Shown here: in pieces, positions 4,519 through 36,619 of the stretch
How positions within the stretch are numbered: the stretch's first letter is position 1
How the letters are laid out: every line of letters begins with the position of its first letter
Assembly: GCA_020719845.1 (NCBI GenBank)
Contig: DYPP01000021.1
Coordinates: 1-36,619, forward strand
Source: Treponema denticola
GTDB lineage: Bacteria > Spirochaetota > Spirochaetia > Treponematales > Breznakiellaceae
Direction: 5' to 3'
Length of the DNA: 36,619 nt
The notes under the pieces: model-generated
Told to the model about the DNA's origin: nothing
The model's input: only the letters and a program-made list of their open reading frames with translations
Databases searched by the model: none
Position numbers and translations under genes: made by a program

Positions 4519-6576
4519 GTGCCCCGGACGCTCCGCTCCCGCATCCGGGCCTCGTCGGCGCTGGCTTTCAGTTTTGGTCTGGTGGTGGTGATCACCATCA
4601 TCACCGCTTTCATCGCCAGCGACCACGTGGCGGTGCGCATCCGGGAACAGACTACCGCCCGGAACCGGCTGTTGGCGCTGACCCTGGCCGACGATATCGA
4701 CACCCTGCTGGAAGGGTGCTTTCTCGGCCTTCGCGCCATGGAGGACGATCGATACGTCGGCCAGGACATCCTGGATAGGCTGGAAAGAATCTATCCCGCC
4801 TTCAGTTCGGTCCTGGTGATCGACTCCCAGGGCAGGGTGATCCGGACGTCCGGCCATTCCTCCCTGCTGGGATACGACGTTTCCGCCCGGGATTTCTACC
4901 TCGAGCCCATCCGCACGGGGCAAGCCTACGTATCTCCAGTCTTCATCGCCGAAGACACCTACGCCCCGACCACGGTCCTGTCGATTCCCGGCCGGAACGG
5001 GATCATCGCCGCGGCCCTGGATCTCAGTTCCCTGGGCAATTTCATCTCCGCCCTGCCGGTACGCGGGATAGCCGCCGTCGCGGTGGCGGACCGGAACGGG
5101 AATCTGATCGCCGACCAGGACAAAGGACGGGTTAACCGGCAAGAATCCATCGTCATGGAGGCCTGGTATCAGGAAAGCCGGGGCGTCGCTCCGGGCTGCG
5201 CGGTGGTGGGCGTCGACACCCCGACCAGCGAACTGGTCTGCTGGGCCCCGGTGGGCACCCGGTCCGGCTGGACCGCCGTTGTCCGGGAATCCTCGGACCA
5301 GGTGTTCGCCAGCGCCACCTACATCAAAAAAACCTCCTTTGTGGGGATTCTGGTCCTCAGCGGCATCAGCATGATCCTTATCCTGACCATCCTCCACTTC
5401 TTTGACCGCGACATCGCCGCGCTGCGGGGACATACCAAAAAACTGGCCGCCGGGGACTATGACCTGGAATTTACGTACGACGGCTTCCAGGATCTGATGC
5501 CCCTGGCCAGGGACTACCACCACGCCGTCAGCGCCGTGACGGACCGGGAATTCCAGCTGCAGCAGAACGAGCGCCGGCTGGAGCTCTTGCTGGATTTTCT
5601 GCCTATTCCGGCGATCGTGGAGGACAAGAACAGCCACCGGCTGCAGTACAACCGGGCGAGCGTACAAGCCTTCGGCTGGTCGGAAGCGGATTGCCCTACC
5701 CCCCATGAATGGTGGCCCCGGTATTGTCCGGATGATGAATACCGGAAAATCGTCAAGAGTCGCTGGAAGCGGTATATACAGGAGCTTTTTGTCGGCAAGC
5801 AGACGGCGGATCCCTTTGAATGGACCCTGACCTGCAAGGACGGTTCCCGCAGAATCGCCTATTCCTACGCCGCCAACATCGGCGACAGCGTCGTCACGGT
5901 GATCGTGGACAACACTACCAACCGGGAAGCGGAAAAACGGATCTCCGCCAACCTGCGGGAAAAAGAGATTCTGTTGAAGGAAATCCATCACCGGGTAAAG
6001 AACAACCTGCAGATCATCATCAGCCTGCTGACCCTCAAAGCCGGGGGCGATGACTCCGCGGGCAACCCCTTCAAGGAGTCCATCGACCGCATCAACGTCA
6101 TGGCGGTCATCCATGAACTGCTGTACGAGTCCAAAGATTTTGCCCATATCGACTTGAGCGAATACATCCGGACCATCGTCGAATGGATCGCCTCATCCTA
6201 CATCCACGGCCCGGTGCGTCCGGCGATCCGGCTTGAACTGCAACCCATCGACCTCGATATCGACGCGGCCATCCCCTGCGGCCTGATCGTCAATGAGTTG
6301 TTCACCAACGCCGTAAAGTACGCTTTTGACGCCGACGCCGTCGATCCCGCCATCTCCATCCGTACTAGCCTGGACGCCCCGGACCGGGTGGAACTCCAGC
6401 TGGCGGACAACGGCAAGGGACTGCCCGACGACGTCGACCCGGCCAAGGCGGATTCCCTGGGCCTGCAGCTGATCGTCTCGCTGGTATCCCAGCTGAAGGG
6501 CAGTTGGACCGTGGAGCGCACCCACGGAACGGATTGGAAGATCCGTTTTACCCGCAAAAAAACTATGCTGGAATAG
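4519..6576 (+). CDS. Cache-PAS sensor histidine kinase of the HisKA_2 class
   Basis: The product is 685 aa from GTG 4519, 2 nt after the previous stop, with AGGA at 4506-4509. Order of parts: a transmembrane helix (~14-34); an extracytoplasmic dCache-like sensor (~40-265, with VLVIDSQGRVIRTSG and RGIAAVAVADRNGNLIAD); a second helix (~274-295); a HAMP-like linker (~297-345); a PAS domain (~355-480); a HisKA_2 dimerisation domain; and an HATPase. The phosphoacceptor is His490 in LLKEIHHRVKNNLQ, the HisKA_2 signature, rather than the common HxxxxP H-box. N-box NELFTNAVKYAF and G-box DNGKGLPDD complete the kinase. No receiver domain or response regulator gene lies adjacent, so the partner is elsewhere. 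Translation is probably coupled to the binding-protein gene, suggesting one signalling module. Confidence 0.9.
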   Translation: MPRTLRSRIRASSALAFSFGLVVVITIITAFIASDHVAVRIREQTTARNRLLALTLADDIDTLLEGCFLGLRAMEDDRYVGQDILDRLERIYPAFSSVLVIDSQGRVIRTSGHSSLLGYDVSARDFYLEPIRTGQAYVSPVFIAEDTYAPTTVLSIPGRNGIIAAALDLSSLGNFISALPVRGIAAVAVADRNGNLIADQDKGRVNRQESIVMEAWYQESRGVAPGCAVVGVDTPTSELVCWAPVGTRSGWTAVVRESSDQVFASATYIKKTSFVGILVLSGISMILILTILHFFDRDIAALRGHTKKLAAGDYDLEFTYDGFQDLMPLARDYHHAVSAVTDREFQLQQNERRLELLLDFLPIPAIVEDKNSHRLQYNRASVQAFGWSEADCPTPHEWWPRYCPDDEYRKIVKSRWKRYIQELFVGKQTADPFEWTLTCKDGSRRIAYSYAANIGDSVVTVIVDNTTNREAEKRISANLREKEILLKEIHHRVKNNLQIIISLLTLKAGGDDSAGNPFKESIDRINVMAVIHELLYESKDFAHIDLSEYIRTIVEWIASSYIHGPVRPAIRLELQPIDLDIDAAIPCGLIVNELFTNAVKYAFDADAVDPAISIRTSLDAPDRVELQLADNGKGLPDDVDPAKADSLGLQLIVSLVSQLKGSWTVERTHGTDWKIRFTRKKTMLE

Positions 6577-28978: not shown

Positions 28979-30070
28979 ATGAACAAGAAATATATTGGAA
29001 TAGGCACGTTGCTCCTTTTGGTTTGTTTTCTGACTTCCTGCCCGACTCCGGATACTACTCCGGAATTGGAAAACGAGTCTGAATCCGTGCTTTATGCCGC
29101 AGGCGGATCGACTGACAGCGCGGGTTTGCTGATACCCGGGTATTGGCGCAATGGCGTGTGGAACGCATTGCCTGCCTTAGTTGCCACGAAGGAAGCGATT
29201 GCCGTCTCTATTGTAGTGAACGAATCGGATGTGTATCTGGCTGGAGTGTGTAAAAACACTAGCAATGTAGTGGTACCCGGTTACTGGAAAAACGGTGCCT
29301 GGGTAAGCCTGCCTTCGTTGGACACGACAAGGGAATCAAGAGCTTTTTCTTTGGCATTAAAAGGAACAGATATATATGTCGTCGGATTCAGAACCGATTC
29401 CTCCGGTAAAGTAATCCCCGGTTACTGGAAAAACGGTAACTGGGCTACACTTCCACCTGTTGATTCAACCCGTAGTGCGGGAGCCATTTCGATTCATTTT
29501 GACGGCGATGACATGTATGTCTCCGGTGTCTGTCTCGATGCCTCGGGCCAGCGAATTCCCGGCTATTGGAAAAATGGCACATGGAGCGGACTTCCCGTCC
29601 TTGATGCGACGAAGGAGTCTTCCGTGTCCGGGCTGTTAGTTGATGCCGGAACGGTTTATATTTGCGGTTTTTCTGAAAATACTGCCTCGGTTGATATTCC
29701 CGGTTTTTGGAAAAATGGAACTTGGACGGCCTTGGCCGCTCTGAGTTCTGCCAACAACAGCGATGTTCGCGCCTTGGCAAAGAATGGGCCGGACGTGTAC
29801 CTGGCAGGGTACTCGATAAATACGAGCAATGTTTTATGCGCGCAAGTCTGGAAGAACGGTATCGCCGAAACGCTGAATCCGATTGACACCGCTCAAACGT
29901 CGTGTGTCGACGCATTGATCCTGAACGGGATCGATGTGTACGCAGGCGGCTACTCTACTACCGCGAGCGGAGTCGCTGTCGCCGGATACTGGAAAAATGG
30001 CACATGGACGGCCTTGCCCGCGCTTGATTCGGGGCAGGATTCCTTTGTGGCGATGTTGTCTGTTCCTTGA
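28979..30070 (+). CDS. Lipoprotein made of seven 47-residue WKNG repeats, likely beta-propeller
   Basis: The product is 363 aa from ATG 28979 (GGTAGGG upstream). The signal ends LTSCPTPD (lipobox). After a short acidic linker the entire protein is seven repeats of almost exactly 47 residues. The consensus is DVYLAGxxxxTSxxxIPGYW, then KNGTWTALPxLDxTxxS, then a variable strand. The WKNG turn is in six copies and WRNG in the first. Repeat 6 is the most divergent (AQVWKNGIAETL). Seven regular beta-rich repeats fit a seven-bladed propeller. There are no recognised catalytic residues, so a binding or adhesion role is plausible. Repeat identity at DNA level is high enough for copy-number change by recombination. 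Confidence 0.85.
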   Translation: MNKKYIGIGTLLLLVCFLTSCPTPDTTPELENESESVLYAAGGSTDSAGLLIPGYWRNGVWNALPALVATKEAIAVSIVVNESDVYLAGVCKNTSNVVVPGYWKNGAWVSLPSLDTTRESRAFSLALKGTDIYVVGFRTDSSGKVIPGYWKNGNWATLPPVDSTRSAGAISIHFDGDDMYVSGVCLDASGQRIPGYWKNGTWSGLPVLDATKESSVSGLLVDAGTVYICGFSENTASVDIPGFWKNGTWTALAALSSANNSDVRALAKNGPDVYLAGYSINTSNVLCAQVWKNGIAETLNPIDTAQTSCVDALILNGIDVYAGGYSTTASGVAVAGYWKNGTWTALPALDSGQDSFVAMLSVP

Positions 30071-32756: not shown

Positions 32757-35339
32757 TCACAGCTCCCGCACGATCCCCAGGAATTCCTCCCGCTTGAACG
32801 CGCCGTCGAGCGGGTTCTGGTCGAAGACCATGAAGTACTTGAACGTCCGACCCGCCGCGGATTCCCAGAACTTGCCGAGCTTGAGCTTGCGCTCGGAGTC
32901 GGAGTTGTCCCGGTCGTCGCCCTTGGTCTCCAACAGGATGATGTTGCCGCGGACCGTGACGATGATGAAGTCCGGGTAGTGGTTGATCCAGCCGTTGAGG
33001 GCAAAGCCCCGGCGTTCGATGTTCCGGTGCCAGAAGAGGACGTTTTCAAGGTTGGCGACTTCGTTGATGACGCCGAGTTCAAAGCCGTTGGGCTTCTCTT
33101 CTTCCAGGTAGAGGCTCTTCGGCAAGCCTGCCCGGGTTTCCAGGGGGCCGATCTCTTTTGGAAAAGCCCAATGCGCCTTGGTGAAGATGCGGTTGGCGGC
33201 CAGGGCTTTGTCGAAGACTATTGCTGCAAAGTCGTCGGAAAGTTGACTGATCTTGGCCTTTACCTTGACGGCAAAGGCAAAGGGATTCTGTTTGACCCCT
33301 TCAAGCTGCTCCGGAGTAAGGGATGAAAAGATGCGGAGCGCGTAGTCCTTGAGGTCGCCCTCGGCAATGTGGTCGAAGCGGCTGAACTGGGGCCAGATCT
33401 TGGCCAACATCTCCCGCTTCTGGTCCTCGGGAGCAAGGCTGTTGAGGTAGCGGACAAAGGCTTCCAGTTCCTTTGGGTCCAGCTTCATGTATTCAGGGGC
33501 GGACTCGCCGGTTTCGTAGGAGACGACGTCGACCTTGTAGGCGTCGGGGGAAGAGCCCGACAGCGACACGTCCGACGCCTGCTGGGAAAGCTTGAAGCTT
33601 TTCAGCAGCCCCGCCTTGGAGATCAGCTTGAGGCTCGCGTCGCCGTCGTTGAAAAGGCCGGCGTCGACGTCCTCAAAGAATTGCGGCAGCTTGAGCTTAA
33701 GCGCCTGCTCGCGGTACTGCGGTCTCATCGGAAACATATCCTGCGCTCCTTGCAGCTCCAAAGGTCGGATCAAGCCGGGCTCATCGGCCGATCGAGCGAT
33801 GACCTCCTGGAGCTCCGCGTCGGTTCCCAACGCCAGGCTCCGGATCTCGGCGACCGCCGGGGTAACGGCGGAGGCTGCGGCGGCGGCAAGGCGCGGGACG
33901 ATGGCATCGATCAGGTCGGCCGCTTCCGGCACCCCGGCTGAAGGCGGCGCGGCGGGAGCGGCGGCCTGCGCAGCCTTCACGCGGTAGTCGTGCTTGGAAA
34001 AGCCCGCGCGGTTGAGGCCCGCGACGATCCGGTCCAGCGCGTCCAGGAACGCGGCCTGGGAGGTCAGCACGTAGGACATGTTCAGCAGGGCCTTTCCATG
34101 CGCCCGGACGTAGGGCTGGCGCAGGATGCGGCCCAGGATCTGCTCCACGTCGACCGGGCTGGAACGGTTGGCAAGCGTCGCCAGCACGTAGGCGAAGGGA
34201 CAGTCCCAGCCTTCCTTGAGGGCGTTGACGGTGATGATGCAGCGGATCGGACAGGCGCGGTCTTCCAGGCTGACGCCCTTGAGTTCGTTGACCTCGGCGG
34301 TCTTGATCGCGATCTGTTCCCTGGGGATGCCGAATTCGACGAGCTTCTCCTTGAGCCGCGTAAAGGTGACCGTCTCGGTTCCGCTCTTGGGTTCAGCCTG
34401 AAAGAGCACGATGGGGCGAATGTAGGCGCCGCCCGCGGCTTCTTCCTCTACCGCCAGCGCCTCCAGGTTGCCCCGTAGGGACAGGGCGTTGGCGATGACT
34501 TCGTTCAGGTCGTGGTTGTTGTAGACCACCACCGGAAGCTTCACCATCTGCTCTTTCTTGAGCGCCAGCGCATCGACATAGCTGACGATGTTGCTGGTAT
34601 CGCGCGGGGTGGCGGTCAGTTCCAGGATGAAGCTCGGGTTGAGGTTCTTGAGCATGTCCAGGCTCAGTTCGGAACCGGCGTTGTGGCTCTCGTCGACCAC
34701 GACCAGGGGGTTGAGCGTATTGAGCACCTGGGCGAGCGAAGTGGGATCGGCGTTCGCTATCGCCTTCCCGATAGTGTAGGAAGCAGCGAACCCGGTAAGG
34801 CTGCCGTTTTCCTGGTAGACCTTGCGGCCTTCCTTGTTCTGCGTACGGAAGGAATCGAAGCTGAGCACCACCACGTTGAGCATGGTGCGGACCGATTCAG
34901 GGCTGAAGCCCGTGCCGGCAAGGGCTTCGTCCTTGGTGAGGATCTGCACGCGGCCTTGAAAAAGAGCGTCCCATTTTTGACGATACGGGTGTCCGCCGTC
35001 GCGGAAATTCTTGAGCGTCTGTTCCAGGATAGTAAGCGAAGGAACCATCCAGACGACGACCTTGGCCGGACTCAGGGGGCGGCTCTGAAAGAAACGGTGC
35101 ACGGCGTGCAGGCCAAGGAAAGTCTTGCCGCCGGCGGTGGGAACTTTGAGGCAGGCGGAGGGAACGCCGCCGATTGCTTCCCGGTACGGGCGCAGCGATT
35201 TGGCCCCCGATCCGACGCGGACCTGGCGGTCCGCCCAATAGTCCCTGAAGGCCGCGGCGGGACCGTCCGCCGCATTGAGGTGGCCAAGAAAGTCGTCCAG
35301 GTCGGCTAAAACTGTTTTCTGATATTCTTTGAGTTCCAT
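32757..35339 (-). CDS. res: Type III restriction enzyme Res subunit (helicase-endonuclease)
   Basis: The product is 860 aa from ATG 35339, which shares one base with the upstream stop (TGATG). The superfamily 2 helicase motifs are present: Q-like LKEYQKTVLADL, Walker A VPTAGGKT (Lys72), DESH Walker B VVVDESHN (Asp216-His219), TATPR motif III, NALKEGWDCPFAYVLATL and the arginine-finger motif VEQILGRILRQP. The C-terminal endonuclease has Asp790 in HYPDFIIV and Glu804/Lys806 in ILLETKGDD, a PD-(D/E)xK core. With Mod it forms the type III complex that cleaves DNA after meeting between two unmethylated head-to-head sites. It appears intact. The unusual feature is the gene order, with three small genes between mod and res. 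Confidence 0.92.
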   Translation of the reverse strand: MELKEYQKTVLADLDDFLGHLNAADGPAAAFRDYWADRQVRVGSGAKSLRPYREAIGGVPSACLKVPTAGGKTFLGLHAVHRFFQSRPLSPAKVVVWMVPSLTILEQTLKNFRDGGHPYRQKWDALFQGRVQILTKDEALAGTGFSPESVRTMLNVVVLSFDSFRTQNKEGRKVYQENGSLTGFAASYTIGKAIANADPTSLAQVLNTLNPLVVVDESHNAGSELSLDMLKNLNPSFILELTATPRDTSNIVSYVDALALKKEQMVKLPVVVYNNHDLNEVIANALSLRGNLEALAVEEEAAGGAYIRPIVLFQAEPKSGTETVTFTRLKEKLVEFGIPREQIAIKTAEVNELKGVSLEDRACPIRCIITVNALKEGWDCPFAYVLATLANRSSPVDVEQILGRILRQPYVRAHGKALLNMSYVLTSQAAFLDALDRIVAGLNRAGFSKHDYRVKAAQAAAPAAPPSAGVPEAADLIDAIVPRLAAAAASAVTPAVAEIRSLALGTDAELQEVIARSADEPGLIRPLELQGAQDMFPMRPQYREQALKLKLPQFFEDVDAGLFNDGDASLKLISKAGLLKSFKLSQQASDVSLSGSSPDAYKVDVVSYETGESAPEYMKLDPKELEAFVRYLNSLAPEDQKREMLAKIWPQFSRFDHIAEGDLKDYALRIFSSLTPEQLEGVKQNPFAFAVKVKAKISQLSDDFAAIVFDKALAANRIFTKAHWAFPKEIGPLETRAGLPKSLYLEEEKPNGFELGVINEVANLENVLFWHRNIERRGFALNGWINHYPDFIIVTVRGNIILLETKGDDRDNSDSERKLKLGKFWESAAGRTFKYFMVFDQNPLDGAFKREEFLGIVREL

Positions 35340-35593
35340 CAGGACAGCACCCAGACGCCCGATTCCTTCACGGCGTCATACATGGCGTCGGGCGCCAGAT
35401 CAAGGTCATCCGGCCATTCGACAAAACCGTTCGCGCAACTGACGCGGAAAAAGAATTCCCGATCCTTGAGCGCCGCAAATACGCCGGTAAGGTGGGATTC
35501 CTCGAAACGCACTTTTCCGGCTGTTCCATCGCTGAATTCGACTTTTAGTAAAAGATGGTCCATCGGCTCTACATTGACGACATCGAACAGCAT
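35339..35593 (-). CDS. DUF2442 protein, copy 1
   Basis: The product is 84 aa from ATG 35593, with GGAG about 8 nt upstream. It begins FDVVNVEPMDHLLLKVEFSD, then GTAGKVRFEESHLTGVFAAL, then FVEWPDDLDLAPDAMYDAVK, the DUF2442 layout (V-x-x-L-x-V-x-F-x-D-G, then W-P-x-x-x-D-L-x-P-D-x-L/M). The function of DUF2442 is not established; it is often found beside DUF4160 genes. Its stop shares one base with the res start, so translation is coupled to the restriction gene. Confidence 0.85.
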   Translation of the reverse strand: MLFDVVNVEPMDHLLLKVEFSDGTAGKVRFEESHLTGVFAALKDREFFFRVSCANGFVEWPDDLDLAPDAMYDAVKESGVWVLS

Positions 35594-35596
35594 GGT

Positions 35597-35734
35597 TTAC
35601 TCCAGAGGCGGAATTTTACTCGGTTTCCGCTTTTTGCGACAGAGGTTCCAATCAGCCATCAGTTTGCTACGATGCAGGGAAGCCCATTCAAGAACCAAAG
35701 AGAGCGCCCTGCGGGGCAAATCTCCTTCGGCCAT
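35597..35734 (-). pseudogene. DUF4160 C-terminal fragment
   Basis: A 45-aa frame from ATG 35734, whose first base is the last base of the preceding DUF2442 stop (TGATG), with GGGG 6 nt upstream. The sequence MAEGDLPRRALSLVLEWASL, then HRSKLMADWNLCRKKRKP, then IPPLE, matches the C-terminal half of DUF4160 (the x-G-x-L-P...LLxWxxLHxxELMADW...I-x-P-L pattern). The N-terminal half, with its HxHxx motif, is absent: reading further upstream in this frame gives no family match. It may be a decayed gene, yet it keeps start and Shine-Dalgarno, so a short product could still be made. Confidence 0.75.
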
Positions 35735-36003
35735 CAAAAATCCCCTTTGGCCGATACACGACCTGCGGCTCGCGCAAGCTTATACAAAAACTCGGGAGCC
35801 AGATCAAAGCCGTTCGGCCACACCAAGGTATCGTTTTCCACTAAGACTTGCGCAAACAGAACGGGATCCAAAAGCTCACGGACGATGGTACGTCCATCGC
35901 TCTCAAACAGTGATTTCAGATCCAATACTGATTCGCTTCCATCGTTAAACACCACATCGATAGTGAAATATTTCCGATATTCGGCGCTCGTCACATAAAT
36001 CAT
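35734..36003 (-). CDS. DUF2442 protein, copy 2
   Basis: The product is 89 aa from ATG 36003 with AGGAGG at optimal spacing, the best ribosome site of this locus. It reads YRKYFTIDVVFNDGSESVLD, LDPVLFAQVLVENDTLVWPN, then GFDLAPEFLYKLARAA. It shares the DUF2442 F-x-D-G and W-P-[ND]-G-F-D-L-x-P signature with copy 1 but is otherwise quite different, so the two are old paralogues or separate acquisitions. It begins 8 nt after mod ends, giving the order mod - DUF2442 - DUF4160 fragment - DUF2442 - res on one transcript. Confidence 0.85.
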   Translation of the reverse strand: MIYVTSAEYRKYFTIDVVFNDGSESVLDLKSLFESDGRTIVRELLDPVLFAQVLVENDTLVWPNGFDLAPEFLYKLARAAGRVSAKGDF

Positions 36004-36011
36004 GTGCCCTC

Positions 36012-36619
36012 CTAATACCTCGGTACGTCCCGGGGAATTTTCTTGAACTGGATGCTCCGCCCCTTGAGGTAGTCGGCGTCCAGCGCGCAGGCGTCGGCGT
36101 AGATCACGTACTGATCGTCCCGTTCGGTGATGGTCTTGAGGAAGGCGTAATCCAGGGTCGTTTCTTCCCCTTTCACGTAGTAGAAGTAATACGAAATGCC
36201 CCGACAGGAACCCAAAAGATAGGCATGGCCTTTTTTCTCCTTTGGTAGAGCCGTCTTGGTTTCGGCGTACCAGAGGTACTGGCGGAGGGCGTCGTCCGCC
36301 ACATCCGGGTTGAGCTTGCCGTCGGCGGCAAAGACCGTCGGCCCCAGGGTCAGATACGAAAAGCCGCCGCCGGTACCGGGCGTTGGCTTGTCCTCCGGCC
36401 CGTACCCGGAAATGACCCGCCGCATGCGTTCGGCGGTAATGGTCTCCGCGTAGTCTTCCATCTCGATCATGATAAAGCGCCGATTACCGCCGTCCGCCTG
36501 GTTGAGCTTGAGGACCGCGTGGGCCGTAGTGCCGGACCCGGCAAAGGAGTCGAGGATGATGTCTGGTTCGGAGGAATTGGTTGTCTGTGATATTAATTTC
36601 TGGTTTAATTGGGGAGGTT
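36012..36619 (-). CDS. mod: Type III modification methyltransferase (Mod), C-terminal part, 5' end cut by window edge
   Basis: The frame is open to the right edge, giving about 201 residues. It begins PPQLNQKLISQ and reaches PDIILDSFAGSGTTAHAVLK, the SAM-binding motif I (FAGSGTTAHAV) found near the C-terminus of beta-class adenine methyltransferases. It continues with NRRFIMIEMEDYAETI, the motif II acidic residue, and ERMRRVISGY. A Mod-type tail follows (QYLWYAETKTALP, VIYADACALDADYL) ending KKIPRDVPRY. It methylates adenine within the recognition sequence and specifies the site for Res. The target-recognition and DPPY parts lie outside the window. Confidence 0.9.
   Translation of the reverse strand, partial: PPQLNQKLISQTTNSSEPDIILDSFAGSGTTAHAVLKLNQADGGNRRFIMIEMEDYAETITAERMRRVISGYGPEDKPTPGTGGGFSYLTLGPTVFAADGKLNPDVADDALRQYLWYAETKTALPKEKKGHAYLLGSCRGISYYFYYVKGEETTLDYAFLKTITERDDQYVIYADACALDADYLKGRSIQFKKIPRDVPRY

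Follow-up and report, generated by a model that had tools for sequence, protein, structure and literature searches.

The window analysed here is the whole of contig DYPP01000021.1 (C55), a stretch of 36,619 nucleotides (nt) from Treponema denticola assembly GCA_020719845.1. A minus-strand type III restriction-modification locus lies at the end of this contig, and between its methyltransferase gene (mod) and its restriction gene (res) stand three small genes that we call A, F and B, so that the order is mod - A - F - B - res. A previous interpretation made without database searches, the sequence-only reading, described the inserted genes as two divergent DUF2442 genes around a 45-amino-acid (aa) C-terminal piece of a DUF4160 protein. 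The coordinates and Pfam matches bear this description out, and the features are as follows.

36617..36012, minus strand: Mod, C-terminal 201 aa of the type III DNA methyltransferase; the gene is cut by the contig end
36004..36014, minus strand: mod stop codon TAG fused with a strong ribosome site, TAGGAGGG, directly before the start of A (read from the sequence)
36003..35734, minus strand: A, 89 aa; intact DUF2442 gene (PF10387) with an antitoxin domain like that of DhiA, an additional copy ahead of the toxin piece
35734..35597, minus strand: F, 45 aa; DUF4160 (DhiT toxin), C-terminal half only (PF13711, NF048015)
35593..35339, minus strand: B, 84 aa; second intact DUF2442 gene (PF10387, NF048016), likewise with a domain like that of the antitoxin DhiA
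35339..32757, minus strand: Res, 860 aa; helicase/nuclease subunit of the type III restriction system (PF04851)

As expected of a type III system, mod and res lie on the same strand with mod first. The Mod piece matches PF01555 (expectation value, E, 7e-10) and the PADLOC model MTase_III (E 5.5e-63), while Res matches REase_III of PADLOC (E 1.5e-85) and has 80 full-length relatives at 42-46% identity. The N-terminal ~130 aa of Mod were found at the end of another contig of the same genome (C171:1-384, L227; 77% identical to L005). The gene is thus split over two contig ends, with ~200 middle codons missing from the assembly. A second, distant Mod-like C-terminal fragment (32% identity) also stands at a contig end of this genome (C203:1-507, L167).

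The genes are tightly packed. The mod stop lies 8 nt ahead of the start of A, which follows directly on TAGGAGGG, and F and B are separated by 3 nt. Both of the TGATG junctions previously reported are present: at A/F (35736-35732) the start of F lies inside the overlap, and at B/res the stop of B falls on the start of res. Within 35250-36619 no promoter-like site was found, and the three terminator-like sites found there are close to the chance level of 1.9. A single message running from mod to res is therefore plausible from the sequence.

The family assignments of the three inserted genes exceed the Pfam gathering cut-offs, and are therefore not attributable to chance. A and B both match PF10387, the DUF2442 antitoxin domain (39.0 bits, E 9.7e-10, and 41.8 bits, E 1.3e-10, respectively; cut-off 23.9), and F matches PF13711 over profile positions 36-65 of 65 (30.3 bits, E 4.9e-7). 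No other DUF2442 or DUF4160 matches occur in the genome. In NCBIfam, F resembles the toxin DhiT (NF048015, toxin_DhiT, positions 45-84 of 84), B resembles the antitoxin DhiA (NF048016, antoxin_DhiA, positions 3-69 of 160) and A resembles DhiA weakly (positions 1-72 of 160); none of the three reaches its equivalog cut-off. The C-terminal part of the 160-position DhiA model is unmatched in both A and B.

That A and B are divergent, as previously proposed, is apparent from their 29% identity over 79 residues. A carries a D.R.I-type insert common to the antitoxins of G477 and L200, which are related spirochaete copies, whereas B is without it. The predicted model of B (predicted local distance difference test score, pLDDT, 91) matches the first domain of NE0471 (2auw) with Z 9.7, a root-mean-square deviation (rmsd) of 2.2, 78 aligned residues and 28% identity. 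We take both NE0471 and long DhiA to have a C-terminal helix-turn-helix. Sequence searches of the PDB with B returned only weak AlphaRep matches, which we judged to be chance.

The sequence-only reading regarded DUF4160/DUF2442 pairs as uncharacterised, and this is incorrect: the pair is the DhiTA toxin-antitoxin family, shown in Dickeya and supported in Thermus. In the available text on Dickeya dadantii (PMC8198452), DhiTA is annotated as DUF4160/DUF2442 with the toxin gene first, overproduction of DhiT is growth-inhibitory in Dickeya and E. coli but its co-expression with the antitoxin is not, and the DhiTA complex represses the promoter. The available portion of the Thermus study (PMC12724237), where the pair is called the 'PEM' module, reports no loss of plasmids carrying it over 168 generations. 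There, losing the second (DUF2442) gene blocks transformation, losing the first gene does not, and an AlphaFold 3 analysis has the C-terminus of the toxin changing upon binding. The locus in the window shares with these systems the two domain families and, in F-B, a toxin gene placed before an antitoxin gene and almost touching it. It differs in that the toxin is represented only by its C-terminal half, an additional DUF2442 gene precedes it, each antitoxin is missing the C-terminal portion of DhiA, and all of this sits inside a restriction operon.

We compared F to complete toxins using two alignments, A1 (13 toxins) and A3 (34 toxins). The best conserved N-terminal residues in these alignments are H19, P21-P22, H23, H25 and Y28, and the H..PPHxH..Y motif that they form, in which columns H19, H23, H25 and Y28 are at least 90% conserved, is gone from F. 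By its profile coordinates (PF13711 36-65 of 65; NF048015 45-84 of 84), F is not a full-length DUF4160 protein. The predicted model of a complete toxin (L054, pLDDT 95) has strands at residues 3-7, 10-13, 23-28, 31-36 and 42-45 and helices at 48-60 and 62-73. F corresponds to toxin residues 41-85, so that the last strand, the two predicted helices and the tail (KIxPL) at the C-terminus are kept, and beta strands 1-4 and the motif are absent. Because the beta-sheet half and the H..PPHxH..Y motif are missing, F should be non-toxic. Regarding the fold itself, Foldseek gave the toxin model no significant match in the PDB (best E 0.35), the VIA comparison gave no convincing fold match (best Z 4.8, rmsd 4.6 over 78 residues, to a polo-box domain), and PDB sequence searches with the toxin found no relative.

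Other type III loci bear on what this cassette once was. Our sample is small and consists of the 80 best Res matches from named genomes. In 4 of these there is no Mod match, and they were excluded, which leaves 76 loci with a recognisable mod upstream. The gap between mod and res is at most 60 nt in 46 loci and longer in 30. In three of the 76 (L029, L037 and L054), the gap holds a full-length DUF4160 gene followed by a DUF2442 gene. An insertion of this family at the slot is therefore not peculiar to the window, so that the condition under which the sequence-only reading would have been refuted, an insertion found only here, does not hold, and the complete toxin gene that the sequence-only reading proposed seeking at this position does occur there. 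The hosts are metagenome-assembled genomes of Comamonadaceae (L029), Burkholderiales (L037) and Alphaproteobacteria (L054), and their toxins score 95.9, 97.5 and 70.5 bits, respectively, against the DhiT model (cut-off 100). The stop of the L054 antitoxin overlaps the start of res, as in the window, and the antitoxins of L029 and L037 extend a few codons into the start of res. The sequences show, in the window, a toxin gene's C-terminal half with an intact antitoxin-type gene on either side, and, at this slot in unrelated bacteria, intact pairs.

One locus is represented in both a filled and an empty form: an Azonexus locus (L007) has an empty slot with a 30-nt gap, and its mod and res are ~82% identical in DNA to those of L037, where the slot is filled. 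The slots of L029 and L037 are 79.7% identical, and therefore derive from a single insertion shared by both. Accordingly, there would be about two independent intact insertions (L029/L037 and L054) in addition to that of the window. When all 80 loci were searched with profiles, toxin (T) and antitoxin (D) matches were confined to these three slots, with none in ~539 kb of flanking DNA. A Res survey of the class of L037 (E <= 1e-150) gave a match in 1 of 369 genomes, namely the query genome itself, and added no slots. Relatives of Res are also found on 18 plasmid records. DhiTA pairs, too, occur on plasmids and viral contigs, and they are widespread without restriction genes nearby. Scans with the toxins returned 59 loci, 51 of them T-D, with no Res match among the matches listed; a viral scan with B found nothing. 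Among open-licence papers in PMC, we found none that describes genes lodged at the mod-res junction, and none that places DhiTA within a restriction locus.

We also placed the loci in a phylogeny of Res. The tree was built by a quick method and has several long branches. In this tree (INDEPENDENCE), the window pairs with G431, a genome of the same family, at 53% identity and with a value of 100 in the Shimodaira-Hasegawa-like approximate likelihood ratio test. In G431 (L125) the cassette is absent, and the gap between mod and res holds ~105 nt of non-coding DNA. That locus is itself decaying, in that mod is only a remnant and Res is without ~75 residues near its N-terminus, the rest being open. 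Another Res relative from the family, G304, has no DUF2442 match anywhere in its genome. The three loci that carry dhiTA sit in a proteobacterial group of the tree, apart from the window, and supported branches force at least three changes. A single origin of the insertion is thus not supported. DUF2442 as a conserved partner of Res is likewise rejected, given that the pair is present in 3 of 76 other loci and absent from G431 and G304, which have the closest Res in the family.

Broken toxins next to DUF2442 genes turn out to be frequent. We fetched 30 DUF2442 loci of the family (L127-L156), of which 29 were usable; L153 was dropped, as our own profile found no DUF2442 there. In 15 of the 29 a single frame holds the whole upstream toxin, which in the other 14 is broken, partial or absent. 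The parts that are kept vary (residues 52-85, 53-85, 60-85, 1-30 plus 69-85, 1-17 or 1-13, or a frameshift or stop). On sequence grounds, toxin decay is common across the family, and loss of the toxin with retention of the antitoxin is the asymmetry that should be expected of a toxin-antitoxin pair. Across the phylum, the antitoxin stands directly behind the toxin in 29 of the 30 best DUF4160 loci. In comparing these figures, it is important to consider that the family sample was chosen by D and the phylum sample by T.

Two of the loci resemble possible intermediates. In L097 (1477-2655), two tandem T-D units have the same profile coordinates and E-values, and are apparently a recent duplication. 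In G477 (L157:6491-7353), a D-T-D arrangement has a full-length toxin, and the final codons of a lost toxin (KIEPLV) stand before the first D. The same stretch, L157, has another T-D unit 5 kb away, at 878-1421, and an open reading frame at 5993-6406 that by eye resembles a PIN-type toxin. Small trees of 72 and 85 columns, in which no grouping was supported, neither pair F with one of its two neighbours nor trace where B came from.

We consider it probable that A-F-B is a decayed DhiTA toxin-antitoxin cassette, which entered a type III operon exactly at the junction of mod and res. The sequence-only reading had offered an embedded toxin-antitoxin-like unit that lost half of one partner as one of its two suggestions, and this suggestion is upheld by the family identity, the three intact pairs at the slot and the loss from F of the half with the motif. 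A tandem T-D-T-D array such as that of L097 would have lost its first toxin, giving D-T-D as in G477, and a deletion of ~190 nt would then have taken away the last part of the first intergenic spacer together with the N-terminal half of the toxin that was left; this size rests on one comparison, to the spacing in L157. Today, the locus presumably yields no toxin. A, F and B would be translated as a chain of coupled frames, with ribosomes that finish B re-starting on res, and the remaining antitoxin genes would now mainly bridge translation to res. Such coupling alone would tend to preserve B and the frame chain, B being held in part because it ends on the start of res. Any DhiT that enters the cell may still be neutralised by A and B.

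Several points weigh against a decayed cassette. A and B are fully open and above the family cut-offs, so they could be kept for a function. F begins exactly at the ATG that overlaps the stop of A, which is tidy for a relic. The locus has no close relative by which the decay could be dated or selection measured. Finally, F is nearest to the toxins of A-type partners and B lies on a very long branch, such that the trees match F to neither.

A first alternative is that selection keeps A and B, without a toxin of their own, as an anti-addiction shield against DhiT from plasmids or phages. A and B are indeed intact while F is not, an antitoxin without an intact toxin is common in the family (14/29), and, as noted, DhiTA pairs are carried by plasmids and viral contigs. 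However, DUF2442 was the criterion by which the 14/29 sample was picked, and intact antitoxins are thus to be expected there; decay that starts with the toxin would by itself yield the same pattern; and neither A nor B has the C-terminal part of DhiA (match positions 1-72 of 160). We therefore regard the shield as improbable. The sequence-only reading also proposed that the inserted proteins control the production or activity of Res, and dedicated regulators of Res or Mod would suit the position within the operon and its overlapping frames. A regulator at this junction would also fit EcoP15I, for which the available text of PMC12707154 describes res translation as delayed after entry until protective modification is present. 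By analogy, any change at the mod-res junction could alter the timing of Res, and an incidental effect on res translation via the overlapping stop and start codons is possible. A dedicated function is unsupported, however: 73 of the 76 loci lack the cassette, as does the nearest Res relative (G431), the slot elsewhere holds many unrelated genes, and the pair is common away from restriction genes. We consider dedicated regulators of Res or Mod to be very unlikely.

It is also conceivable that the three genes still function together: F, the helical half, would bind one of the two antitoxins and thereby regulate or dominantly inhibit DhiT. F has its own start codon and keeps both predicted helices and the KIxPL tail, and it is the C-terminus of the Thermus toxin that changes on binding according to AlphaFold 3 (PMC12724237, available portion). 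Against this, other toxins of the family are broken variously and keep different parts (52-85, 1-30, 1-17, frameshifts), and there is no second D-half T-D layout among the loci examined; the proposal thus seems highly improbable to us. An assembly or binning artefact that joined pieces of two loci is scarcely credible. The contig does end inside mod, the middle of which is missing from the assembly, but all five frames are open and fit at single-base overlaps, A, F and B are the genome's sole matches to their families, and the D-T-D layout exists elsewhere (G477).

DhiTA is one of many kinds of cargo at this position. Of the 30 gaps longer than 60 nt, two (L079 and L075) have no cargo gene, and cargo genes are thus present in the slot in 28 of the 76 loci. 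The labels RhuM and DUF1016 were tested on representatives (L012; L033 and L040), and the remainder was grouped by eye. The following occupy the mod-res slot.

L012:5009-5998: RhuM (PADLOC PDC-S05)
L033, L040: YhcG/DUF1016 nucleases
L043: Fic and PDDEXK_3
L064:4231-5996: AAA_21 and DUF4276 (PADLOC HEC-01)
L022:4366-5985: fused PARIS-like AriAB
L027:2525-3844: PtuA-like ATPase
L052:2114-5994: GajA and GajB, i.e., Gabija
L004:522-1248: nucleotidyltransferase and HEPN pair (MNT/HEPN)
L082: BRO-N protein
L080: 23S-IVP-like protein

Gabija, the PARIS-like, PtuA-like and HEC-01 genes, RhuM and MNT/HEPN share the slot and direction of the DhiTA pairs, but their protein families are unrelated to DhiTA and the loci are mostly from Bacteroidota. 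Toxic or defence genes nested in restriction operons have precedents: PrrC in the type IC EcoprrI locus (PMC12707154, available text), and the rlo genes in type I loci of Campylobacter; among 72 RloC genes, 8 lie at a locus of type I or type III (according to the available part of PMC2610378). The locus in the window is type III, not type I, and a two-protein toxin-antitoxin pair differs from an anticodon nuclease silenced by restriction-modification, as PrrC is. Moreover, the window's toxin is presumably inactive by truncation, so that an intact nested toxic gene is found in L029, L037 and L054 rather than here.

By analogy with these systems, the mod-res junction of type III systems might serve generally as a place where secondary defence or suicide modules dock. 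An intact DhiTA pair would then stand guard and release DhiT when Res or Mod is blocked, as PrrC guards type IC systems, and the window would hold a disarmed guard whose antitoxin genes are now a translational bridge, possibly a brake, for res. This proposal is tentative, and we attach low credence to it. DhiTA is a recently named family, and intact copies between mod and res in distant bacteria link it to phage defence; these nested copies give a testable prediction, hypothetical at present, that DhiTA guards type III restriction systems. The 28 loci with cargo suggest the slot as a place to seek new defence genes. We consider this generalisation to a recurrent cargo slot to outweigh the copy in the window, which is a degraded example and not a new regulator.

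Elsewhere in the window, positions 28979-30070 encode a putative lipoprotein with a repeated PGYWKNGxW-type motif.

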